In this document: in pieces, positions 2,821 through 15,009 of the stretch
How positions within the stretch are numbered: position 1 is the first letter of the stretch
How the letters are laid out: every line of letters begins with the position of its first letter
Assembly: GCF_002939305.1 (NCBI RefSeq)
Contig: NZ_MVDI01000003.1
Location: 248,001-312,000 of the forward strand
Direction of reading: 5' to 3'
Length of the DNA: 64,000 bases
Origin: Chroococcidiopsis sp. TS-821
Lineage (GTDB): Bacteria > Cyanobacteriota > Cyanobacteriia > Cyanobacteriales > Chroococcidiopsidaceae
Notes under the pieces: model-generated
Databases searched by the model: none
The model's input: only the letters and a program-made list of their open reading frames with translations
What the model was told of the DNA's origin: nothing
Made by a program: the position numbers and the translations under genes

Positions 2821-3059
2821 TGGTAATTGGTGATTGGTAATAGATAAGATTTACTACTAAGTAAGCAGTTGCTAGTTATTGAGTTCTCTAGTTAGTTATT
2901 TCTAGTTAATCGTTAAGTTATATATCAATCAATCAAATTTTGCTGAAGGTCGGTTCTGTAACAATTCCTATACAAAACTTCCCTAAATTTAGCGCAATAG
3001 AAGCTTAAAGTAATTAGCATCATCATTACTATTACCCATTACCAATTACCTATTACCAG
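2821..3059. repeat. Heptamer-based inverted repeat, copy A
   Basis: The left arm (2821-2843) is built from TGGTAAT/TGGTGAT-like units and the right arm (3028-3059) from ATTACCC/ATTACCA units, so the arms are roughly complementary. About 185 bases lie between them. The right arm runs into the 3' end of the next gene and supplies its stop codon (3053-3055). Similar pairs occur near 26.95, 27.8 and 54.4 kb. Such heptamer repeats are common in cyanobacterial spacers. Confidence 0.6.
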
Positions 3060-3478
3060 TTCCTCATAAAGACATACTTTTCAGCTACTTTCCAATAACG
3101 AGAAAAACGCTTGAGGTCAATATAGCCGTCATAATCTAAGAATGGTTCAACAGCTAGTACTTCTAATGACATCGAGTTTTCAATTCGATCGCAAATCGTA
3201 TTAAAGCGCGGGCTAGGACTTTCTGCGGTGACAACAAGGTTAGCACTGTGTTCTTGCGCGAACGCCATAACTTCGGTTGCGACATCTCCTCGCCGGATAG
3301 TAACAGGTAATTCGAGTAAGCACTCGTAAATAAAAGTTATGCGCTTAAGGCTTAATTGCCATTCTGCAATCAGTGCATCATCCCAAACCCAAATTGCTGG
3401 TGCATCTGGGTAAGCTTTTAGTGCAGGATTGTATGGGCTGAGACAATCACCGTGTACCCAAATAATCGGTTTATTCAT
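3053..3478 (-). CDS. Stand-alone photolyase-like N-terminal (alpha/beta) domain protein
   Basis: This 141-residue protein opens with PIIWVHGDCLSPYNPAL, which has the spacing of the N-terminal motif of DNA photolyases and cryptochromes (W-x-R-x-D-L-R-x-x-D-N-P-A-L). The rest reads as an alternating alpha/beta fold, and there is no FAD domain. A separate FAD-domain gene lies on the same strand at 6553-7428, about 3 kb away, so the two may be a split photolyase-like pair. Of the bulky C-terminal features of full photolyases it keeps none. The family call rests on motif shape alone. It could instead be another HUP/USP-like fold protein. Confidence 0.55.
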   Translation of the reverse strand: MNKPIIWVHGDCLSPYNPALKAYPDAPAIWVWDDALIAEWQLSLKRITFIYECLLELPVTIRRGDVATEVMAFAQEHSANLVVTAESPSPRFNTICDRIENSMSLEVLAVEPFLDYDGYIDLKRFSRYWKVAEKYVFMRNW

Positions 3479-3608
3479 GCAAATTCTAAAAGAGTATTTG
3501 TAGTAGCTAGAAAATTATGCCATTAGCTGCTATTGAATAGATGATGCTTGAAAACGTATTTTTTTTGCTCTAGTAGACGAGAAGTTCGCTACATTTACTT
3601 CGATCCTG

Positions 3609-4664
3609 ATGAAAAGCTCGTTTAGGAATATTATTCTTGGGGCGATCGCGTTTGTCTCCACCATTATCGTTGCAGTGATGGGGTATATTCTCGCAGGCTG
3701 GAGTTTGTTGGATGCAATTTATATGTCAGCTATCACCATTTTTGGTGTAGGCTATGGCGAAGTACGCCCAATCACTTCACCCGCACTGCGAGTTTTTACA
3801 ATCTTGGTAATAGTTGCAGGCTATACTTCTGTCGTCTTTATCGTCAGTGGTATCGTGCAGATGGTGACAGAAGGTGAAATTAATAAAGCGCTACACTCTC
3901 GACGCAGGGAACGCGAAATGGAAAAGCTACAGCAGCACGTCATCATTTGTGGTTTTGGGCGTATTGGGGAGATCTTGGCACGACGTTTAGTACGCGTCAA
4001 TCAGCCTTTTGTCGTGATAGATAGTAATGGCGATCGCGTTGCGAAAGCCGAAGCCAAAGGTTATTTTGTCAAGCAAGGTAATGCAGCGGATGAGACCATA
4101 TTACATGCCGTCGGAATTCAACGAGCAAAAGCTTTAGCAACTGTCCTTCCTGATGATGCGATTAATGTCTTTATCACGCTAACCGCCCGCGAACTTAACC
4201 CCAATTTACAAATCATTGCGCGTGGCGAGTTACCATCAACCGAGAAGAAACTTCGCCTAGCTGGTGCAGATCAAGTTGTTTTACCAGCGGCGATCGGTGC
4301 TGAGAGAATGGCACATATGATTACGCATCCTGCTGCAATGGACTTTTTAGAGCAAGATGACGGGCGCAATACTCTAAACGAACTGCTTGCAGAAATTGAC
4401 GTACAAGTTGATGAATTGGCAATTCCCGCAGATTCACCTTTGGCAAATCAAACAGTAAGCGATATCGAAATTCGCGGAAAAGGTGCTTTTATTGTCGTCG
4501 CCTTGCGTAAAAACGACGGTACAATGATTATCCATCCCAAACACGAAATGTTACTCGAAGTTGGCGATACAGTAATTGTCATGGGACATCGCGGCGATAT
4601 CCCCCAGTTTGCTAAGAATTACGTGTTAAGACGCGATATTAGATACCGAGGTTCGCGAAAATAG
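3609..4664 (+). CDS. Two-TM potassium channel with RCK (TrkA-N/TrkA-C) domains
   Basis: The 351-residue protein has one N-terminal membrane helix (about residues 7-29), a pore loop with the filter-like TIFGVGYGE, a second helix (about 62-86), then a cytosolic RCK_N domain with the dinucleotide motif GFGRIG and a C-terminal RCK_C domain. This is the MthK-like layout, in which ligand binding to the RCK ring gates the pore. The filter core is GVGYGE instead of the usual TVGYGD, though similar variants occur in bacterial TrkA-N channels. It probably functions in potassium homeostasis in the plasma membrane. The gene is transcribed alone. Confidence 0.88.
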   Translation: MKSSFRNIILGAIAFVSTIIVAVMGYILAGWSLLDAIYMSAITIFGVGYGEVRPITSPALRVFTILVIVAGYTSVVFIVSGIVQMVTEGEINKALHSRRREREMEKLQQHVIICGFGRIGEILARRLVRVNQPFVVIDSNGDRVAKAEAKGYFVKQGNAADETILHAVGIQRAKALATVLPDDAINVFITLTARELNPNLQIIARGELPSTEKKLRLAGADQVVLPAAIGAERMAHMITHPAAMDFLEQDDGRNTLNELLAEIDVQVDELAIPADSPLANQTVSDIEIRGKGAFIVVALRKNDGTMIIHPKHEMLLEVGDTVIVMGHRGDIPQFAKNYVLRRDIRYRGSRK

Positions 4665-4772
4665 GAAGAGTGTAGCTTTTGCTTATTTAGTGCAAATCCA
4701 TCTAGAGTTAGGCTTTATTTCTCCACTAGGCTCATTATTCTTGAATAGAATGATCTGCTATCTTGAGCCAGA

Positions 4773-6464
4773 ATGAAAGCTTCCGAAACGACTCTCCGTA
4801 ATTTACTAGAAGGTACTAAACAATTTCAAATCCCACTTTTTCAGCGATCGTACTCTTGGAAAAAGGAAAATTGGGAAACACTGTGGGAAGACTTAATGAG
4901 TCTCTACAGAGAAGAAATCAAAGGCTTTTATTTTTTAGGACCAATAGTAACTCAAGCTATACCTGGTACTGCTGACGGAATCTCACCATTTGTTGTTATT
5001 GATGGACAACAACGCTTAACAACGTTAACAATTGTTTTGGCAGTTTTACGAAACCATTTTAAAAAAATTGACAAAAGCGTGGCAAATGAAGTTCAAGAAT
5101 TGTATTTAATTAATAAATTTAAGAAAGATAATGATATTTACAAGTTATTACCAACACAAAGCGATCGCGAAGTTTATCAAAGTATTATTATAGCAAAAAC
5201 AGTTAAAGATATCAATAAAGTCGGCTTAGTCTACGAAGCTTATAAATTTTTTGAGAACAAATTTAAAAAACCAGGATTTGAGGACGGCAATATATTAGAT
5301 CTCAATAAGTTTAAAGCGATTCTTCTAGAACAGATTTTGTTAGTTAATATTACCTCTGATGAGGGTGATAACCCTTATCTTATTTTTGAAAGTTTAAATA
5401 ATAAAGGAGAAGAATTAAGTCAAATAGACCTGGTACGAAATTACATCTTTATGAAGATACCTGCTCGCGAACAAGAAGTAGTATACAACAATCTTTGGCT
5501 TCCCTTGCAATTAAAATTTAAGGATTATACAGGAGATTACTTTGCAAATGAATTAACAAATGCCTTTTGGTTTTACGTTCGTAAAGATGGTAATGCAATT
5601 AGTCAAAAGGAAGTATATAAAGCGATTAAGCAAAAATTTGATTCATCTCAAGCAGATGCAATCAGCCAACTTGAAGAAATTATTCAGTTTGCTAATTATT
5701 ACTTACGCCTCAACTTTGAAGATGAAGAACCGAATAAAAACTTAAAAAAATGGTTCAAACGACTCAAAAGGTTAGATTTTACGACTTGTCATATATTCTT
5801 ACTCAACGTGTATCGAGATTATGAAGAAGGAAAAATAGCGCTAGCAGAGTTTGAAGAAATTATAAGGTACTTAGAGTCCTATTTTGTCCGGCGTTGGATA
5901 ACTGGAATTTCTACTAGAACGCTAGGTACAGTTTTTAATGATTTATATAAAACCGTAAAAGAGAAAGAACCCAACAATTTAGTTGAAGGCTTACGTCAAA
6001 CTCTAAGAAGCTTTAAAACTACTAAAATTTTTCCAGAAGATGCAAAGTTTCGTGAAGCACTTATTCACAAAGCTTTATATAGTAAAACTTCTGGACTAAA
6101 TGATAGAGTTAAGCTGCTGCTAGAAAGTATTGAAGCCATGCTAACTAGAGAGCAAGTCAATTTTGAAAATTTGAATTTAGAGCATATTATGCCTCAAACT
6201 TTAAATAAGCAGTGGCAAGCAGATTTAGGAGCTAACTATAATAAAATTCATAAAGAATGGTTACATAATTTAGGTAATTTAACATTAACAGGTTACAATC
6301 CTGAACTGTCTAATAAAAGTTTTGCTGAAAAGCGATCGCTCTTGGATGCTAGTAACTTATCCTTAAACCAATATTTTAAAAATTTTACTACTTGGAACGA
6401 AGAAGCAATCAAAAAGCGTGCCGAATATTTAGCTGATATAGCTCTAAAAATTTGGCTTCGATGA
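4773..6464 (+). CDS. DUF262/DUF1524 protein, GmrSD-like nuclease (probable defence)
   Basis: This 563-residue protein has an N-terminal DUF262 domain with the ParB-like motif IDGQQRLTTL, and the family's IFESLNNKG segment near residue 205. The C-terminal DUF1524 HNH-type nuclease domain shows LEHIMPQ and then HNLGNLTLT with a downstream N and S/N. The single-chain fusion corresponds to GmrSD type IV restriction enzymes, which use a nucleotide to cut modified (for example glucosylated) phage DNA. The coding sequence is clearly richer in A+T than its neighbours, consistent with horizontal acquisition. It sits between the two photolyase-like genes. The target modification cannot be predicted. 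Confidence 0.85.
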   Translation: MKASETTLRNLLEGTKQFQIPLFQRSYSWKKENWETLWEDLMSLYREEIKGFYFLGPIVTQAIPGTADGISPFVVIDGQQRLTTLTIVLAVLRNHFKKIDKSVANEVQELYLINKFKKDNDIYKLLPTQSDREVYQSIIIAKTVKDINKVGLVYEAYKFFENKFKKPGFEDGNILDLNKFKAILLEQILLVNITSDEGDNPYLIFESLNNKGEELSQIDLVRNYIFMKIPAREQEVVYNNLWLPLQLKFKDYTGDYFANELTNAFWFYVRKDGNAISQKEVYKAIKQKFDSSQADAISQLEEIIQFANYYLRLNFEDEEPNKNLKKWFKRLKRLDFTTCHIFLLNVYRDYEEGKIALAEFEEIIRYLESYFVRRWITGISTRTLGTVFNDLYKTVKEKEPNNLVEGLRQTLRSFKTTKIFPEDAKFREALIHKALYSKTSGLNDRVKLLLESIEAMLTREQVNFENLNLEHIMPQTLNKQWQADLGANYNKIHKEWLHNLGNLTLTGYNPELSNKSFAEKRSLLDASNLSLNQYFKNFTTWNEEAIKKRAEYLADIALKIWLR

Positions 6465-9348: not shown

Positions 9349-10383
9349 CTACTGAGGGGGGGTTGGTAGGGTAGCGTAGAGTTCTTTTAGTTTTTGAATG
9401 TCGTGGTGAAACCAGGTGTGTAGCCAGTGATTGTAGGCTTGAATGGCGATTTGTTCTGGTTGGGCGTGGTTGAAGATTTGGGTAATTATGTGTCCTGCCA
9501 TCATACCGGACATAATGGCTTTAAGGACACCGTGCGAGGCGGCGGGATCGAGTACGGATGCTGCGTCGCCAACGAGAAAGTAACCTTTACCTGCTGGCTG
9601 TTCAACAATGCGCCAGGTGACATCGGCGGCGTTGGTTCGTATTGGTTGTAGTTGGGCAAATTCTGGGGGAATCCAGCGTTTATCAATTTGTTGGTTGAAA
9701 GATAGTCGCGTCCATTGATACAGTTGGGGGCGTACTTGGACTGTCCATGTCCAACCTTGGTTATCTGCGGCGATCGCGGGTGAAGATTGGGGAATTTCTC
9801 CTGTAGCGTAGCCGTAGCGGGCAATGAGACGCGGGCTATAGTAAGTAATTGGTAATTTTAACTGACGTGCTAGCCAGTGGTGACTTCCGGTTGCATCGAC
9901 AACAAAGGTTGAATGTAATGCACCTTGCGATGTTTTTACTCCTGCAACTCGATCGGCACTCAGAAGTAGCGCTGTAGGATAGCAGGGTTGTAGTACTTTG
10001 ACTCCCAACTTTTTAGCATGGTTGAGTAAAGCCGCGTCAAAATCTGCCCGCCATATTTGAAAGCCGCGCCATACACCTGTATCGTCTTTACCAAAAGGGA
10101 CAAAGTGCGCTTGATTCCATTGCACCCAAATTCCAGGGTGACGTAGCAAGTCAGGAGTCAAAGTTTGTTCAGCAACGCCTAGTTGTTGTAGCAAAGGCTC
10201 AATTCCTGGGTGTAGAGTTTCTCCAGGGCGATCGCGCGGAAATTGTTCGCGTTCGACGATCGCGACATCAAGTCCAGCTTGAGCGCATTGTATCGCGGTT
10301 GCTGTACCTGCGGGTCCCGCACCGAGAATGAGGACATCCGTTGCTGCTTCAGATCGCATTGACTTCACATCGAAATTCACCAT
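9349..10383 (-). CDS. FAD-dependent oxidoreductase, halogenase/LodB-like
   Basis: The 344-residue flavoprotein has the FAD dinucleotide motif LGAGPAGTATA near the N terminus, the conserved RPGETLHPG, and the second FAD motif FLVGDAASVLDP before the C terminus. This layout is shared by geranylgeranyl-reductase-like, tryptophan-halogenase-like and LodB-type flavoproteins. I do not see the halogenase WxWxIP motif, so halogenation is not supported. The start lies inside the 3' end of the 752-residue gene; an alternative ATG at 10359 overlaps that stop by 11 bases. Either way the two genes are translationally coupled, which implies that their products act together. Substrate unknown. Confidence 0.75.
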   Translation of the reverse strand: MVNFDVKSMRSEAATDVLILGAGPAGTATAIQCAQAGLDVAIVEREQFPRDRPGETLHPGIEPLLQQLGVAEQTLTPDLLRHPGIWVQWNQAHFVPFGKDDTGVWRGFQIWRADFDAALLNHAKKLGVKVLQPCYPTALLLSADRVAGVKTSQGALHSTFVVDATGSHHWLARQLKLPITYYSPRLIARYGYATGEIPQSSPAIAADNQGWTWTVQVRPQLYQWTRLSFNQQIDKRWIPPEFAQLQPIRTNAADVTWRIVEQPAGKGYFLVGDAASVLDPAASHGVLKAIMSGMMAGHIITQIFNHAQPEQIAIQAYNHWLHTWFHHDIQKLKELYATLPTPPQ

Positions 10384-12607
10384 CGTCTTGTTGCCAACAC
10401 AAAGTATCTTGCGTTATCTGACACGTGAAACGATTACGTACGCGCAGACGTTTGCGGCGGACATCGTCGGTAATTTGTTCGCTTCCTTGCACTGTGGCGA
10501 AGACGTATAAATAGCCAGAACCTTGCAATGTCGATCGGGCGCGATCGCTTCTTTGTGTCCAATCGGCAATTTTTTCCGCAGCGACAAGTAACAATTGAGT
10601 TGTACTGACTGTATCGTTTGGTGGTAACACGCGAATGCAAAAACGCAAGGCTTCCATGCGGCGAATAAGTTCTGCACTATCTACCTGCGCCAGTTCTGAT
10701 ACGCGAATTTGTCCTGCAAGCGCATTAGAAATATAGTCGGAACGGTCTTTATTCGCAAAATTGACGACTAACCCGTCAAAGTCTTCAAAAAACGAACCAT
10801 ACTCGCCATCCCATCCTCGTTGTGACATGACTTCTCCAGCTTTCACGCGGGGATGTTGTGGATGATAACCAAGTTCGCTATCAAGTAATGGTAACGCTGT
10901 CGGTGCAGAAAGAATCGCGAAAGTTCGCGCTGCATCGGGTGCTACCGCAGGCCAAAATGAATTCAGTGCAGCACAAAGTTTAGCATCTTCAGGAAAAGGA
11001 CTACCCAAGCCATAAGCTGCGTAAAAGTTACCTTGGCGGTCTTGTCCTAACGAAACATCCCAGCCAGGGGCAAAAACATTAGAAGCAGCATCTGGTAAAA
11101 AACTGACTAAACTATCAGATTGCAAGCGCTTGGGTAGATCGTTAGTACGAGGCGCGCTACCAACAATTGCGGCGATCGCTGTTTCATTGCGTCGAAAAGC
11201 TTTCGTCTCGCTATCAGGTAAAGGTAAATCTGGATTGGGAGGTTGTCTTCCTTTGGATAAGGGTGATGGTCCACCTTGACTAAATTGAGCGCGCAAAGTG
11301 GGTAAAAACTCATCTACCCAATGTTCAATCGCAATTTGATCCGCAAGTGGAAAGAAATCTGGCGCTGTTACTAAAGAATACGCTGGACGTACGGCAAGTC
11401 TCGCTAAACCATTGACTCTGACACTAATGCAACCATCACAGGAATTATCGCTAAAGTGTGCGGCTTCATAACCTCCTTGGGCAAGAAACTGTAAAAATTC
11501 GTCTTCTGAGGCAATTTCTTGATTTAAATCAACTAATTTTTGCTCACTCGCACTTGTTTCTACCAGATGTCGCATATTGACGTATTCAGGTGCTTCGCGT
11601 CCTCTGCCATTAGCGGCAATTTGATAAGATGTCCAAAATCGATTGTTGAAGTTTTCTGGTGGTACCTGAAATCGGACAATTTCATCGCGTCCCGTCACAG
11701 AATTTCGCTGCGTTGAGGTGTAAACTAACCGTGGTGTGGGTTGCGGTACGAGTAAAACTGAGGCGTTGACGGGTTGTAATTCTACCAAATCCCGCGAACG
11801 ACGCGAATCGCGCACAAATGGGGCTTGATTAATATCAAATCCATCTAATATGGGAATTCCACCATGCGTATGTACGCGCTGTAGTTTCTCATTGCGGTGA
11901 TACTCGAGAAACTCTAAGGTAATATTGACATCGCGCAAGCACTCATCACCAGGAAATAATTTATGCACAGGAAACAAAAATCGGCGCGTGCGATCGCCTG
12001 GTTGTTCTTCTAAAATCGCATCATCAACACTTAAGCGACGTTCTACCGCCAGAAAAGCCGCATAACGTGCAGGCATTACCGCAAGGCGACCGTCTTCGGA
12101 TTCTACCCAAAAACTTCGTCGAAAGCCGCTGTAATTTGCTGTTGTTGTTCCTACACGCGCAACTCCAGTACGCGAAAACGCCATATCAGCATGAATTCCG
12201 TGCGGACTTCGTGAAGCAATGCGATACTGATACGCAAATACTGCAATTACGGCATTAGGAAAATCAGCTAAACTACGATTTGTGAGGCTATAGATGTAGT
12301 TTTCGATGGCATCCAACTCTGCTAAAGTCGGATAAGCGCCATTATTACCAACCGGATGCACTGCCGAACTTGCTAAGGCGTGATATAACAAACTACGTGC
12401 GGGGCTTCCTGGTTCAATACCGCGAATTCCATCTGATGCAAAGTCGGTAAATCCTGCAAGATTGCGGTCAATTGAGGGTAATTCTTTGGCAAGTTCTTGC
12501 TGTAAATCAGTTGCAGTAATATCTAAACCGTGTTGTAAAAGTAAGTCTCGCCATCCTTGAGACGCTAGGCGATCGCAAACTTGTTTTACTTCATCAATTA
12601 AAGCCAT
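10349..12607 (-). CDS. Uncharacterised 752-residue protein, partner of the overlapping flavoprotein
   Basis: I do not recognise this family. No signal peptide or membrane helix is visible. Candidate ligand or reactive motifs are HGIHAD (136-141), VHTHGG (245-250), CDGC (390-393) and a Cys545/Trp552 pair in LCAALNSFWP. A proline-rich segment (about 446-465) may separate two domains. The start is supported by GGGAGAG just upstream of the ATG. The end overlaps the flavoprotein start. The haem peroxidase gene lies upstream on the same strand but a terminator-like hairpin separates them. The size, the His and Cys motifs and the redox neighbours suggest an oxidase or a modified-residue enzyme; this is inference only. 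Confidence 0.7.
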   Translation of the reverse strand: MALIDEVKQVCDRLASQGWRDLLLQHGLDITATDLQQELAKELPSIDRNLAGFTDFASDGIRGIEPGSPARSLLYHALASSAVHPVGNNGAYPTLAELDAIENYIYSLTNRSLADFPNAVIAVFAYQYRIASRSPHGIHADMAFSRTGVARVGTTTANYSGFRRSFWVESEDGRLAVMPARYAAFLAVERRLSVDDAILEEQPGDRTRRFLFPVHKLFPGDECLRDVNITLEFLEYHRNEKLQRVHTHGGIPILDGFDINQAPFVRDSRRSRDLVELQPVNASVLLVPQPTPRLVYTSTQRNSVTGRDEIVRFQVPPENFNNRFWTSYQIAANGRGREAPEYVNMRHLVETSASEQKLVDLNQEIASEDEFLQFLAQGGYEAAHFSDNSCDGCISVRVNGLARLAVRPAYSLVTAPDFFPLADQIAIEHWVDEFLPTLRAQFSQGGPSPLSKGRQPPNPDLPLPDSETKAFRRNETAIAAIVGSAPRTNDLPKRLQSDSLVSFLPDAASNVFAPGWDVSLGQDRQGNFYAAYGLGSPFPEDAKLCAALNSFWPAVAPDAARTFAILSAPTALPLLDSELGYHPQHPRVKAGEVMSQRGWDGEYGSFFEDFDGLVVNFANKDRSDYISNALAGQIRVSELAQVDSAELIRRMEALRFCIRVLPPNDTVSTTQLLLVAAEKIADWTQRSDRARSTLQGSGYLYVFATVQGSEQITDDVRRKRLRVRNRFTCQITQDTLCWQQDDGEFRCEVNAI

Positions 12608-12748
12608 AGTGTCTCTCCCATGTGCTAACTTATACGCTCATTTCTTGTTTTGCAGAAGTTCTTTTTTTAGTTTTTTGTACATTTTTTAGCAATGCTGTCA
12701 AACTTTAGATATTGCTTGTAATGACTAGACATTACATTGTTTGAAGAA

Positions 12749-12788
12749 AGAGCAGGGTGAAGAGGGATTTTCCCCTACTCTTTGCTCT
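12749..12788 (-). terminator. Terminator-like hairpin after the peroxidase gene
   Basis: AGAGCA (12749-12754) pairs with TGCTCT (12783-12788), enclosing a second GC-rich stem (GAGGGA with TCCCCT). On the minus strand it is followed by TTCTTC. It lies 17 bases beyond the peroxidase stop and argues that the peroxidase is a separate or only partly read-through unit relative to the 752-residue gene. Confidence 0.6.
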
Positions 12789-12804
12789 TATGTTGAGCGC
12801 TTAA

Positions 12805-14400
12805 TTAATCACCAATTGGATTAATATCTCCAACAAACCTTAATAAGTCAACCATTGTGAATGTTCCTGGCTTTTGTGCAGGGAGTGTTGGTTTCCAATC
12901 AGGTTTCCTTACCAAAAAAGAACTGCTATCTTTTTGAAGTAATCCTACAAACACTTCAGCAACAATACGACTACCAACCTGCCCTAGATGTTCGCCGTCA
13001 CCTTGAATTTCTGCTTCTTTGAGAATGTAGTACCACAATGGAGATTCAATATCAAAACCATGTTGTTTGGCAACTTCTCCATCTTTTCCTGTTGCAATCT
13101 CAGCAGGTGATAAAGGGTCAAATCCCATAAATCTTGCAACACTTTGACCAGGTGGTAGACCTACTTTTAATCCGCGTAGTAAGTTTCTTACTGCTAAAGA
13201 TCTCGGTTCAGGAACGTTGGGTAAATCTTTTAAAGGATCGACAAGTAAAGGGTCTAATTTACGACTTAAACCTACTGGTATATTTGGGTCAATTTCAAAA
13301 AACCTGCGCCAATCAATCACCCAGTTTGTTGGCAGTGTGGGGTTAAGTCCTAATTCAGTATCTCTTCTTCCTGATTTGGCAGTAAATTCAAAAAGGAGTT
13401 GTAGCGTTGCACTTGCAAGTTTACTATCTGTTTCTAGAAAAGTGAAGACACGATTGTAGTCATACGCTGCGCGTACCATGCTGTGTCCGAGGCGATAAGC
13501 AGCAACAGAAAACTCTAGCGGAATAAACGCATCGCCTGTAGGTTTATAAAAAGAGGGTCCTTGCTTGAGGACAAGACCAAGTTGTTCGTTATCAAGAATG
13601 CGAGTTAGAAAATCATGGATAACAATCCATTGATAATGCCAAATAACGAGATCTCTAGCTTCTTCAAATGCAGACTTGCGAATTGGGGACTCTTGTTGAA
13701 TTGTGCCATCTTTAATTCCTTGCACTACTTTGTTATGAAATTTAAGGAATGCAAGATGTAATTGCGAAACAATCAAATTTTCATCATTACGAGGATCGCC
13801 GAGTAGCCCTAGCATACTTGATGCGCGGGGAATATCATTCGGTAGTACGCCTAGTTGTTCGCCTTGTCTTCCTGTCGGACTTTCAGTCGTTTGTCCAAGT
13901 AGGAAAAACTCTGGTCTTTCCAGTTCATAAAGATATGGTTGCACCTCAGGTCCTGCACCGTAAAGGCTATCCAAGTCAACCATTGGAGTGCGGAAGTTTC
14001 TTAACGCTAGAGGATCGTTGAGCGTTTCTTGCAGCGAAGTGATATCAAAGGTAATGTCGTGATCGATAAATTGACCTAAATAGGTGTAACCAGCAGGAAC
14101 AGTTTTGTTGTCGTTTGCAGGGTCGTTTTCACTTGGATCGTCTAGAAACCGAGGATCGTTCATCGCATTTCCTAATGCTTCCAGACTCTTTTGAAACTCT
14201 TCTAAACTTTTATTGACAGGTGATAGCGGACGCAGTTCGGGAAACAATCTACCAAACTTTCCTGTAGGAACAAATTGTCCAATCGGTTGGTTATCTTCTT
14301 TGCGCGGACTAAAGCCATGCATTCTCCCGACTCGTTCTCCCGCAGGTTTACGCGGAGTAAAGCCTTGAATTTTGTTTTGAATTTTTTGCTGTATATTCAT
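12805..14400 (-). CDS. Haem peroxidase of the animal (cyclooxygenase/myeloperoxidase) superfamily
   Basis: I chose the ATG at 14400 (531 residues), which has AGAAG upstream; an in-frame ATG at 14469 would add 23 residues but lacks a binding site. The distal region reads TYLGQFIDHDITFD with the distal His next to Asp, and the proximal region reads YRLGHSMVRAAYDYN. An N-terminal repeat-like stretch (GFTPRKPAGERVGR, then GFSPRKEDNQ) precedes the fold. Bacterial members oxidise halides, phenols or lipids with peroxide. There is no signal peptide, so it is probably cytosolic or exported by an unusual route. Confidence 0.88.
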   Translation of the reverse strand: MNIQQKIQNKIQGFTPRKPAGERVGRMHGFSPRKEDNQPIGQFVPTGKFGRLFPELRPLSPVNKSLEEFQKSLEALGNAMNDPRFLDDPSENDPANDNKTVPAGYTYLGQFIDHDITFDITSLQETLNDPLALRNFRTPMVDLDSLYGAGPEVQPYLYELERPEFFLLGQTTESPTGRQGEQLGVLPNDIPRASSMLGLLGDPRNDENLIVSQLHLAFLKFHNKVVQGIKDGTIQQESPIRKSAFEEARDLVIWHYQWIVIHDFLTRILDNEQLGLVLKQGPSFYKPTGDAFIPLEFSVAAYRLGHSMVRAAYDYNRVFTFLETDSKLASATLQLLFEFTAKSGRRDTELGLNPTLPTNWVIDWRRFFEIDPNIPVGLSRKLDPLLVDPLKDLPNVPEPRSLAVRNLLRGLKVGLPPGQSVARFMGFDPLSPAEIATGKDGEVAKQHGFDIESPLWYYILKEAEIQGDGEHLGQVGSRIVAEVFVGLLQKDSSSFLVRKPDWKPTLPAQKPGTFTMVDLLRFVGDINPIGD

Positions 14401-15009
14401 AATTTTTAACTTCTGTCGTCTTGTTGAGATTGATGAGGAAAAGTCATTCTGCTTTTGCAGCAAATACAATGTGTTATTCAGAAAGTGCTAGTTCTGAATA
14501 AGGTGCAAGAAGCGATCGCGCGACACTTTATTGGGGTTTACATGTCTTAAGATTGTCGCGATTATGACTCTTGCAATAAACTGTGAGTGTAATCATGTCT
14601 ACTCTTTGCCAAGAGAAGATTTCGGAATTTTTACTAATTTTTTTGTAAATATTTTTATCAACAATTTATTGATAGGGCGTCGCGGCTTGAAGTATCAATA
14701 TCCGGTACAGATTGCCCATTGCTAATGTCTAATTGCCCTGAGTTTTAATCTTCGGACATGAGTATTAATAATCTGCGACTGGCGCACAAAAAGCGTGTCA
14801 TTCTTGAGTGTTTACTCTAAGAAAATTTCGTCAACTTCTGTCGTGACTTGTTCAAGTCCGCCTAATTATTGTATGTTGTTTCTACTTTCAGCAGGTTTCT
14901 TTATGAACTTGGTAGTACTGAGTTTTTAGTGTAAATACTGGATCTAAAATCCCTGCACAAAACTGTATAAGCCAACTTGAAGTGAAGTTCGTCCATAGGA
15001 AAACAGCTA
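14401..15009. other. Divergent spacer without a recognisable gene
   Basis: This 609-base spacer lies between the divergent peroxidase and acyltransferase-like genes. It is A+T-rich and has no open frame with coding character. One 64-codon frame (14531-14725) has an unconvincing composition. It must hold the promoters of both neighbours, but I see no defined box. Confidence 0.5.

Follow-up and report, generated by a model that had tools for sequence, protein, structure and literature searches.

The closest described systems are the LodA/GoxA oxidases and the flavoproteins encoded with them. LodA oxidises lysine and GoxA oxidises glycine, H2O2 is released and a partner flavoprotein is needed (PMC4417212, PMC7876137). 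LodB is described as required for cysteine tryptophylquinone (CTQ) in LodA, and a lodB-like gene stood near the lodA-like gene in all genomes but one of that study, whose survey of the LodA-like family used BLASTP at 1e-10 (PMC4417212). Quinohaemoprotein amine dehydrogenase (QHNDH), also a CTQ enzyme, is a dehydrogenase, and its QhpC subunit has Asp33 and a loop of five residues between Cys37 and Trp43 (PMC7876137). Here we compare with these systems a locus from a 64,000-nt stretch of Chroococcidiopsis sp. TS-821 (contig NZ_MVDI01000003.1, positions 248,001 to 312,000; hereafter the window), in which open reading frame (ORF) calling gives three consecutive minus-strand genes in the order haem peroxidase, 752-residue protein and 344-residue flavin adenine dinucleotide (FAD) protein. 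The best explanation of this locus, and one that we consider likely, is that the 752-residue protein represents a very divergent sister branch of LodA/GoxA, carrying a partner-built CTQ and acting as an H2O2-releasing oxidase.

An earlier interpretation made from the DNA letters (the sequence-only reading) had described the large protein as belonging to no recognised family, its stop overlapping the start of a halogenase/LodB-like flavoprotein and a haem peroxidase lying next to it. ORF calls, Pfam and NCBIfam confirmed this arrangement, and the large protein itself gave nothing significant in Pfam, NCBIfam, PHROGs or PDB sequence searches. None of seven relatives passed a Pfam cut-off, and PF18417 and PF17990, the models used to test for LodA_N and LodA_C, had no match in the source genome of the window. 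We found no paper on the family in the open-licence PMC text searched, which is weak evidence of absence.

Relatives of the 752-residue protein were found in Acaryochloris, Burkholderia and Cupriavidus in a plasmid search, and scanning a species-genome collection with two search patterns returned 77 loci. These belong to Pseudomonadota (41), Cyanobacteriota (9), Planctomycetota (6), Nitrospirota (6), Bacteroidota (5), Acidobacteriota (3), Actinomycetota (3), Myxococcota, Bacillota and Verrucomicrobiota (one each), and one locus is without phylum assignment, so that the family spans ten named phyla. The protein is nevertheless rare: a match was present in 2 of 292 cyanobacterial genomes, the source genome included, and in 1 of 300 Burkholderiales genomes, this being the genome used as the centre of the search. 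The window together with L004 to L084 makes 81 distinct loci, L004 and L008 being the same locus. The conservation counts below refer to 76 full-length rows, from which L007 (split in two frames), L008 and the fragments L072, L074, L081, L083 and L084 were left out.

In these rows the motif P-x3-D-x3-C-x6-W is intact throughout (76/76), and it continues as W-P-x3-P in 74. Cys545 is the sole invariant cysteine and Trp552 one of three invariant tryptophans; this is the pair that had been singled out beforehand, at exactly these positions. Asp541, four residues before the cysteine, is likewise present in every row and is the counterpart of LodA D512 and GoxA D678, an aspartate described as conserved across tryptophylquinone enzymes (PMC7876137). 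The conservation of Asp541 and Cys545 is partly selected, because one of the two search patterns contains both residues. However, ten members lacking the Cys-containing pattern still keep the Asp and the Cys, and Trp552 lies outside both patterns. As the Burkholderiales search returned its centre genome alone, the check on selection rests on these ten members. The loop between Cys and Trp is six residues long in the family, whereas it is 64 in LodA and 8 to 36 in 14 of 15 LodA-like proteins (the fifteenth gave no value). In combining D-x3-C with a short loop, the family resembles QhpC.

The sequence-only reading had also pointed to His/Asp, His-x-His and CxxC motifs. Part of the first stands, since A140 (76/76) and D141 (73/76) of H136-x2-H139-A-D141 are conserved in at least 90% of relatives. 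In contrast, the motif histidines and both cysteines of CxxC fall outside the columns conserved at that level, and metal roles for His-x-His and CxxC were rejected for this reason.

Profile comparison placed the conserved motif in the context of the LodA cofactor. When the 76-row family alignment was compared by hhalign with 15 LodA-like proteins collected through Pfam LodA_C, the first local block scored 50.6 (E 6e-5) and set the family D-x3-DG ... PDF-x-P on LodA DD-x2-DG ... PPDYAP. The second local alignment, with a score of 32.0, covers the cofactor block and sets PGWDVS ... SPFPEDAKLC ... FWPAVAP on PGIEVT ... IPWQADFFDC ... YWWPPQSP. As controls, the best of 60 column-shuffled LodA profiles scored 23.1, the reversed profile 16.3 and an unrelated flavoprotein profile 20.4. 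In the second alignment P537, D541, C545, W552 and P557 fall on LodA P508, D512, C516, W581 and P586 (LodA chain numbering), and the spacing of both P-x3-D-x3-C and W-P-x3-P is equal in the two families (W581-P582-x3-P586 in LodA).

The predicted structure points the same way. An AlphaFold2 model built from a 74-row alignment had a predicted local distance difference test score (pLDDT) of 94.5 and a predicted template modelling score of 0.93. We re-aligned it with VIA-align, which takes up the 1000 best chains of Foldseek and is not an independent search. The first 14 of the 50 entries that it listed are GoxA and LodA (Z 9.7–7.1; 6vmw 9.7, 2ymw 9.1), with a root-mean-square deviation of 3.8 to 5.5 Å over 271 to 297 residues and 15–17% identity. 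They are followed by the alpha subunit of QHNDH (4.6 and 4.3) and then by unrelated chains at 3.7 or less. The aligned ranges end at model residues 643–727, in the C-terminal part of GoxA/LodA. A strong match to a known unrelated family, which had been named beforehand as a result that would refute the sequence-only reading, appeared neither in the sequence searches nor in the Foldseek comparison.

Given that the structural comparison ranks GoxA and LodA first, that two profile blocks exceed all 60 shuffles and that the motif positions map onto each other, the 752-residue protein is probably homologous to LodA/GoxA. On this point the sequence-only reading, which had held that the protein does not resemble LodA and had inferred an analogous enzyme, is not supported. 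With L-lysine 6-oxidase (3WEU/2YMW) and glycine oxidase GoxA (6BYW) the protein shares the predicted fold, the D-x3-C and W-P positions, a comparable size and a flavoprotein gene directly downstream. It differs from them in its low identity over the structurally aligned part, in its shorter Cys-Trp loop and in lying below detection by Pfam LodA_N/LodA_C. Since no LodA sequence model that we tried detects the family, we speak of a sister branch and not of a member of LodA/GoxA as now defined.

The large gene is almost always accompanied by a gene for the flavoprotein. Accepting flavoprotein neighbours at E < 1e-25, we found one downstream on the same strand in 73 of the 81 distinct loci, in line with the conservation of the gene pair across genomes that had been set in advance as a check. 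The gap is at most 50 nt, or the ORFs overlap, in all of these except L025, L026 and L081 (164 to 303 nt); the most extensive apparent overlaps are probably an effect of ORFs extended upstream. In the window the stop of the large gene lies inside the flavoprotein ORF, the overlap being 35 nt from the first ATG or 11 nt from the second, at 10359, which in an alignment corresponds approximately to the protein start of the flavoprotein of the sister genome. In three further loci the flavoprotein gene precedes the large gene, by about 1.2 kb in L020 and L021 and with an overlap in L035, and in Pseudomonas edaphica (L084:6052-7578) a partial large gene (residues about 504–655) and the flavoprotein share a single reading frame. 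Overall, 77 of the 81 loci are paired.

The partner is a halogenase/LodB-like protein (PF04820 at 6.7e-21) that forms a group of its own. Among NCBIfam models it scored best with QhpG (125.6 bits; NF049967, cut-off 240 bits), followed by CmlS (95), GoxB (90) and LodB (88.1), all far below their cut-offs, which for the LodB/GoxB equivalogs (NF038171, NF038174) is 400 bits. QhpG was also the best model for four of five relatives tested. In a quick tree containing the 76 family rows but no QhpG, the partner flavoproteins separate from the LodB and halogenase-like rows with a Shimodaira–Hasegawa-like approximate likelihood ratio test (SH-aLRT) support of 85. In a second, with 32 of the 76 family rows and 12 of 26 QhpG loci, they separate from both LodB and QhpG (SH-aLRT 99), and QhpG, the peptidyl-Trp dihydroxylase of QHNDH (PDB 7CTQ), groups with the LodB rows opposite the family (support 89; the root is arbitrary). 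Both trees were made without bootstrap, LodB rows were chosen by their position beside LodA-like genes, and rows L126 and L131–L136 were left out. A closest kinship of the partner with QhpG, favoured by the NCBIfam scores but not by the tree, was not adopted as a fact.

Individual residues also set the partners apart. Trp211 and Trp213 of a Trp-x-Trp motif are each present in 75 of 76 family rows, and this motif is shared with all 12 QhpG rows, whereas position 213 is Tyr in all eight LodB rows (Trp-x-Tyr). Trp257 is invariant in the family (76/76) and replaced by Ser, Val or Thr in LodB rows. What the partners have in common with LodB/GoxB is that a halogenase-like FAD protein is encoded immediately after the quinoprotein gene. 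The resemblance to the QHNDH system has a further limit, as QhpC is a subunit of about 9 kDa cross-linked by QhpD, in contrast to a 752-residue protein; a QhpD-like neighbour was not searched for.

Several observations weigh against assigning the protein to a LodA/GoxA sister branch. No Pfam, NCBIfam or PDB sequence search matched LodA, including a search of the PDB with the family profile; LodA is in the PDB and was retrieved neither by phmmer nor by the profile. The best block has an hhalign probability of 65%, but the cofactor block has one of only 3.7%. Caution with single weak blocks is called for, since a third alignment, overlapping and non-colinear, also exceeded the shuffles with a score of 26.9. 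When a full-length alignment with nine LodA-like rows was forced, EDAKLC and the cofactor motif fell on a different LodA stretch, so that the placement of the motif on the LodA CTQ site is visible in the second local alignment only; an N-terminal agreement at GVARVG appears in the forced alignment, in parts to which the output gives no confidence. On the structural side, Foldseek of the full model found no match at E ≤ 0.001, and as all GoxA entries represent a single protein in variant forms, the independent structural matches number two. When residues 425–665 were folded alone (pLDDT 76.6), 39 weak Foldseek hits were obtained, none of them LodA or GoxA, and VIA-align, covering its 115 candidates, gave no match either, so that the segment by itself does not support the fold; structural support for the catalytic part therefore rests on the full-length alignment. 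The flavoprotein was not found in the DNA examined in four of the 81 loci, which extended several kb downstream in L005 and L083, 1.6 kb in L052 and 0.3 kb in L068. Finally, the role of the Asp in CTQ formation is disputed, as GoxA without this Asp still forms CTQ (PMC7876137).

The computed observations are a conserved motif in the context of the LodA cofactor motif, a predicted GoxA/LodA-like fold and a near-constant FAD partner of its own group. A Cys545-Trp552 quinone built by the flavoprotein, as the sequence-only reading had proposed, is well supported but unproven and is still the best reading. By homology, the family most likely works in the same way as LodA/GoxA. The partner flavoprotein would oxygenate Trp552, and a thioether to Cys545 would then form, yielding CTQ on an unusually short loop with Asp541 beside the cofactor. 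The mature enzyme would bind a primary amine or amino acid to its quinone as a Schiff base, oxidise this substrate and be re-oxidised by O2, releasing H2O2 and ammonia, and the co-encoded haem peroxidase, where present, could use or remove the H2O2. A more specific proposal, which we regard as unlikely, is that the family forms a third type of CTQ system. Its oxidase would have the LodA fold, with Cys and Trp seven residues apart, close to the six of QhpC, so that its dedicated Trp-x-Trp flavoprotein would hydroxylate the unmodified Trp directly at the FAD, like QhpG and not in the remote manner of LodB/GoxB, and the oxidase system would be the peroxide-making half of an oxidase–peroxidase pair where a peroxidase is co-encoded.

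The peroxidase in the window (PF03098 at 7.7e-20; 71.4 bits against a gathering score of 25) is encoded by an ORF at 12805–14469, with 554 residues counted from a TTG and an ATG at 14400. Peroxidases of this family lie near the large gene in eight loci (the window, L008, L010, L015, L038, L047, L065 and L073), upstream and on the same strand. Their distance to the large-gene ORF is 4 to 94 nt in L047, L038 and L010, 197 nt in the window and at least 0.5 kb in L008, L015, L065 and L073; a weakly lipase-like gene intervenes in L008, and L038 has a second PF03098 peroxidase on the other strand. Dyp-type peroxidases occur in five further loci, upstream on the same strand within about 0.45 kb in L016, L017 and L063; those of L005 and L012 have the opposite orientation to the large gene. 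Neither kind was present in the DNA examined at the remaining 68 of 81 loci. Of the 16 PF03098 genes in the eight genomes with such a neighbour, nine lie inside the large-gene loci, whereas five carrier genomes without the association hold no PF03098 gene; on the Acaryochloris plasmid (pREC1, L005) one PF03098 peroxidase lies about 9 kb from the large gene. Because peroxidase neighbours of both types recur and the copies in carrier genomes concentrate in these loci, the peroxidase is probably part of the biology in lineages that carry it beside the large gene, and its recurrence suggests a built-in source and sink of H2O2.

The peroxidase gene had been read as possibly separate on account of a terminator-like hairpin. 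The 197-nt gap and the hairpin are indeed there, and the latter is stable (–29.6 kcal/mol for 12715–12804, z –6.0, with none of 200 shuffles as stable), but it is not followed by a U-tract, and a terminator scan did not report it. The idea of a wholly unrelated unit is weakened by the relatives found upstream of the large gene in eight loci.

The scarcity of these neighbours bears on whether the enzyme is an oxidase at all. A LodA-like fold with a modified Cys-Trp pair could also belong to an enzyme that makes no H2O2, for example a dehydrogenase feeding another carrier. QHNDH provides a precedent for a CTQ dehydrogenase, and only 13 of the 81 loci have a peroxidase nearby (8 PF03098, 5 Dyp). 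We consider this improbable, as LodA and GoxA, the closest functionally characterised proteins, are oxidases (PMC4417212), and the peroxide-related neighbours, where identified, are haem peroxidases; electron-carrier neighbours were not searched for.

A further rival, which we hold to be very improbable, takes the flavoprotein for an ordinary halogenase or hydroxylase of small molecules; the large protein would then be a separate enzyme or a scaffold, with a structural role for its conserved Cys and Trp. The flavoprotein does match the tryptophan-halogenase Pfam family and CmlS, as CmlS-type FAD halogenases do, and a Cys-Trp bond is invisible in sequence. Trp-x-Trp-x-Ile-Pro is a hallmark of halogenases. 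The window flavoprotein reads GWTWTVQ at this place, and no Ile-Pro follows Trp-x-Trp in the 11 family rows printed of the 76 aligned, whereas WFWTIP is found in five of six rows that we presumed to be halogenases from this motif and not from a database; the remaining row, L122, has GWWY and groups with LodB. Moreover, pairing in 77 of 81 loci across ten named phyla and the LodA P-x3-D-x3-C ... WP-x3-P context of the Cys and Trp argue against this rival. The least credible alternative is that the LodA resemblance is superficial, with only an immunoglobulin (Ig)-like beta domain in common and an unrelated catalytic segment: the matches around residues 112–424 extend to QHNDH alpha and to many Ig/cadherin domains, residues 425–665 alone are unmatched and the forced alignment misplaces the motif, but the aligned ranges reach into the C-terminal part of GoxA/LodA, the cofactor block exceeds the shuffles and the Asp-x3-Cys and Trp-Pro spacing agrees.

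Table 1. Features of the locus, with positions counted in the window.
Feature	Position	Strand	Basis
752-residue LodA/GoxA-like protein, proposed CTQ enzyme	10349..12607	–	ORF, ATG start; AlphaFold2 model; structural re-alignment; profile alignment
Cofactor motif P537-x3-D541-x3-C545-x6-W552-P553-x3-P557	10937..10999	–	Second local hhalign alignment; family conservation
Cys545 codon, proposed CTQ cysteine (LodA C516 position)	10973..10975	–	76/76 relatives
Trp552 codon, proposed CTQ tryptophan (LodA W581 position)	10952..10954	–	76/76 relatives
344-residue FAD protein, proposed Cys-Trp maturase	9349..10383	–	ATG ORF; likely start 10359; Pfam, NCBIfam, gene pairing, trees
Animal-type haem peroxidase (PF03098), proposed H2O2 consumer	12805..14400	–	Pfam; relatives near large gene in 8 loci
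Stable hairpin in the 197-nt gap, without U-tract	12747..12783	–	Folding energy against shuffles

Coordinates of the features are given in Table 1. The nearest relative found for this cyanobacterial contig is Gloeocapsopsis crepidinum. Some loci elsewhere show features of their own. L005, with its large-protein relative, Dyp peroxidase nearby and no flavoprotein neighbour, is the Acaryochloris marina plasmid pREC1, typed as conjugative. An Edaphobacter metagenome-assembled genome carries a tandem pair of large genes with a single flavoprotein (L017:6001-10931), possibly encoding a hetero-oligomer. Near the gene pair of Burkholderia stagnalis, an ORF (L006:11428-12015, minus strand) carries ELSHKEMASVSGG and is perhaps a peptide precursor; we take this stretch to resemble a double-glycine leader. 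A family of proteins of 315–406 residues is encoded upstream of the large gene in L041, L045, L046, L050, L068, L069, L081 and L082, on the same strand in seven loci and on the opposite strand in L069. Two of its members were run against Pfam and gave no match, and Nitrospira or Nitrospiraceae appears in the titles of six of these eight loci. Ten Burkholderiaceae loci have a protein-kinase-like protein in the flank (L006 at 2885-4969, L023, L027–L030, L033, L075, L078 and L080); Pfam, applied to the L023 copy alone, gave Pkinase at 1.3e-43.

On the best reading, the new element is a widespread and so far unannotated LodA-like quinoprotein sister branch with a dedicated maturase, and the LodA superfamily may extend beyond the reach of its Pfam and NCBIfam models. 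If this is true, an unannotated branch in ten named phyla would join the small class of enzymes whose quinone is made from a Cys and a Trp of their own chain. With a maturase group of its own and the shortest Cys-Trp loop among the LodA-like proteins compared, the family would offer a natural case for asking whether flavoproteins build CTQ at a distance, as for LodB/GoxB, or by direct hydroxylation of the Trp, as for QhpG.

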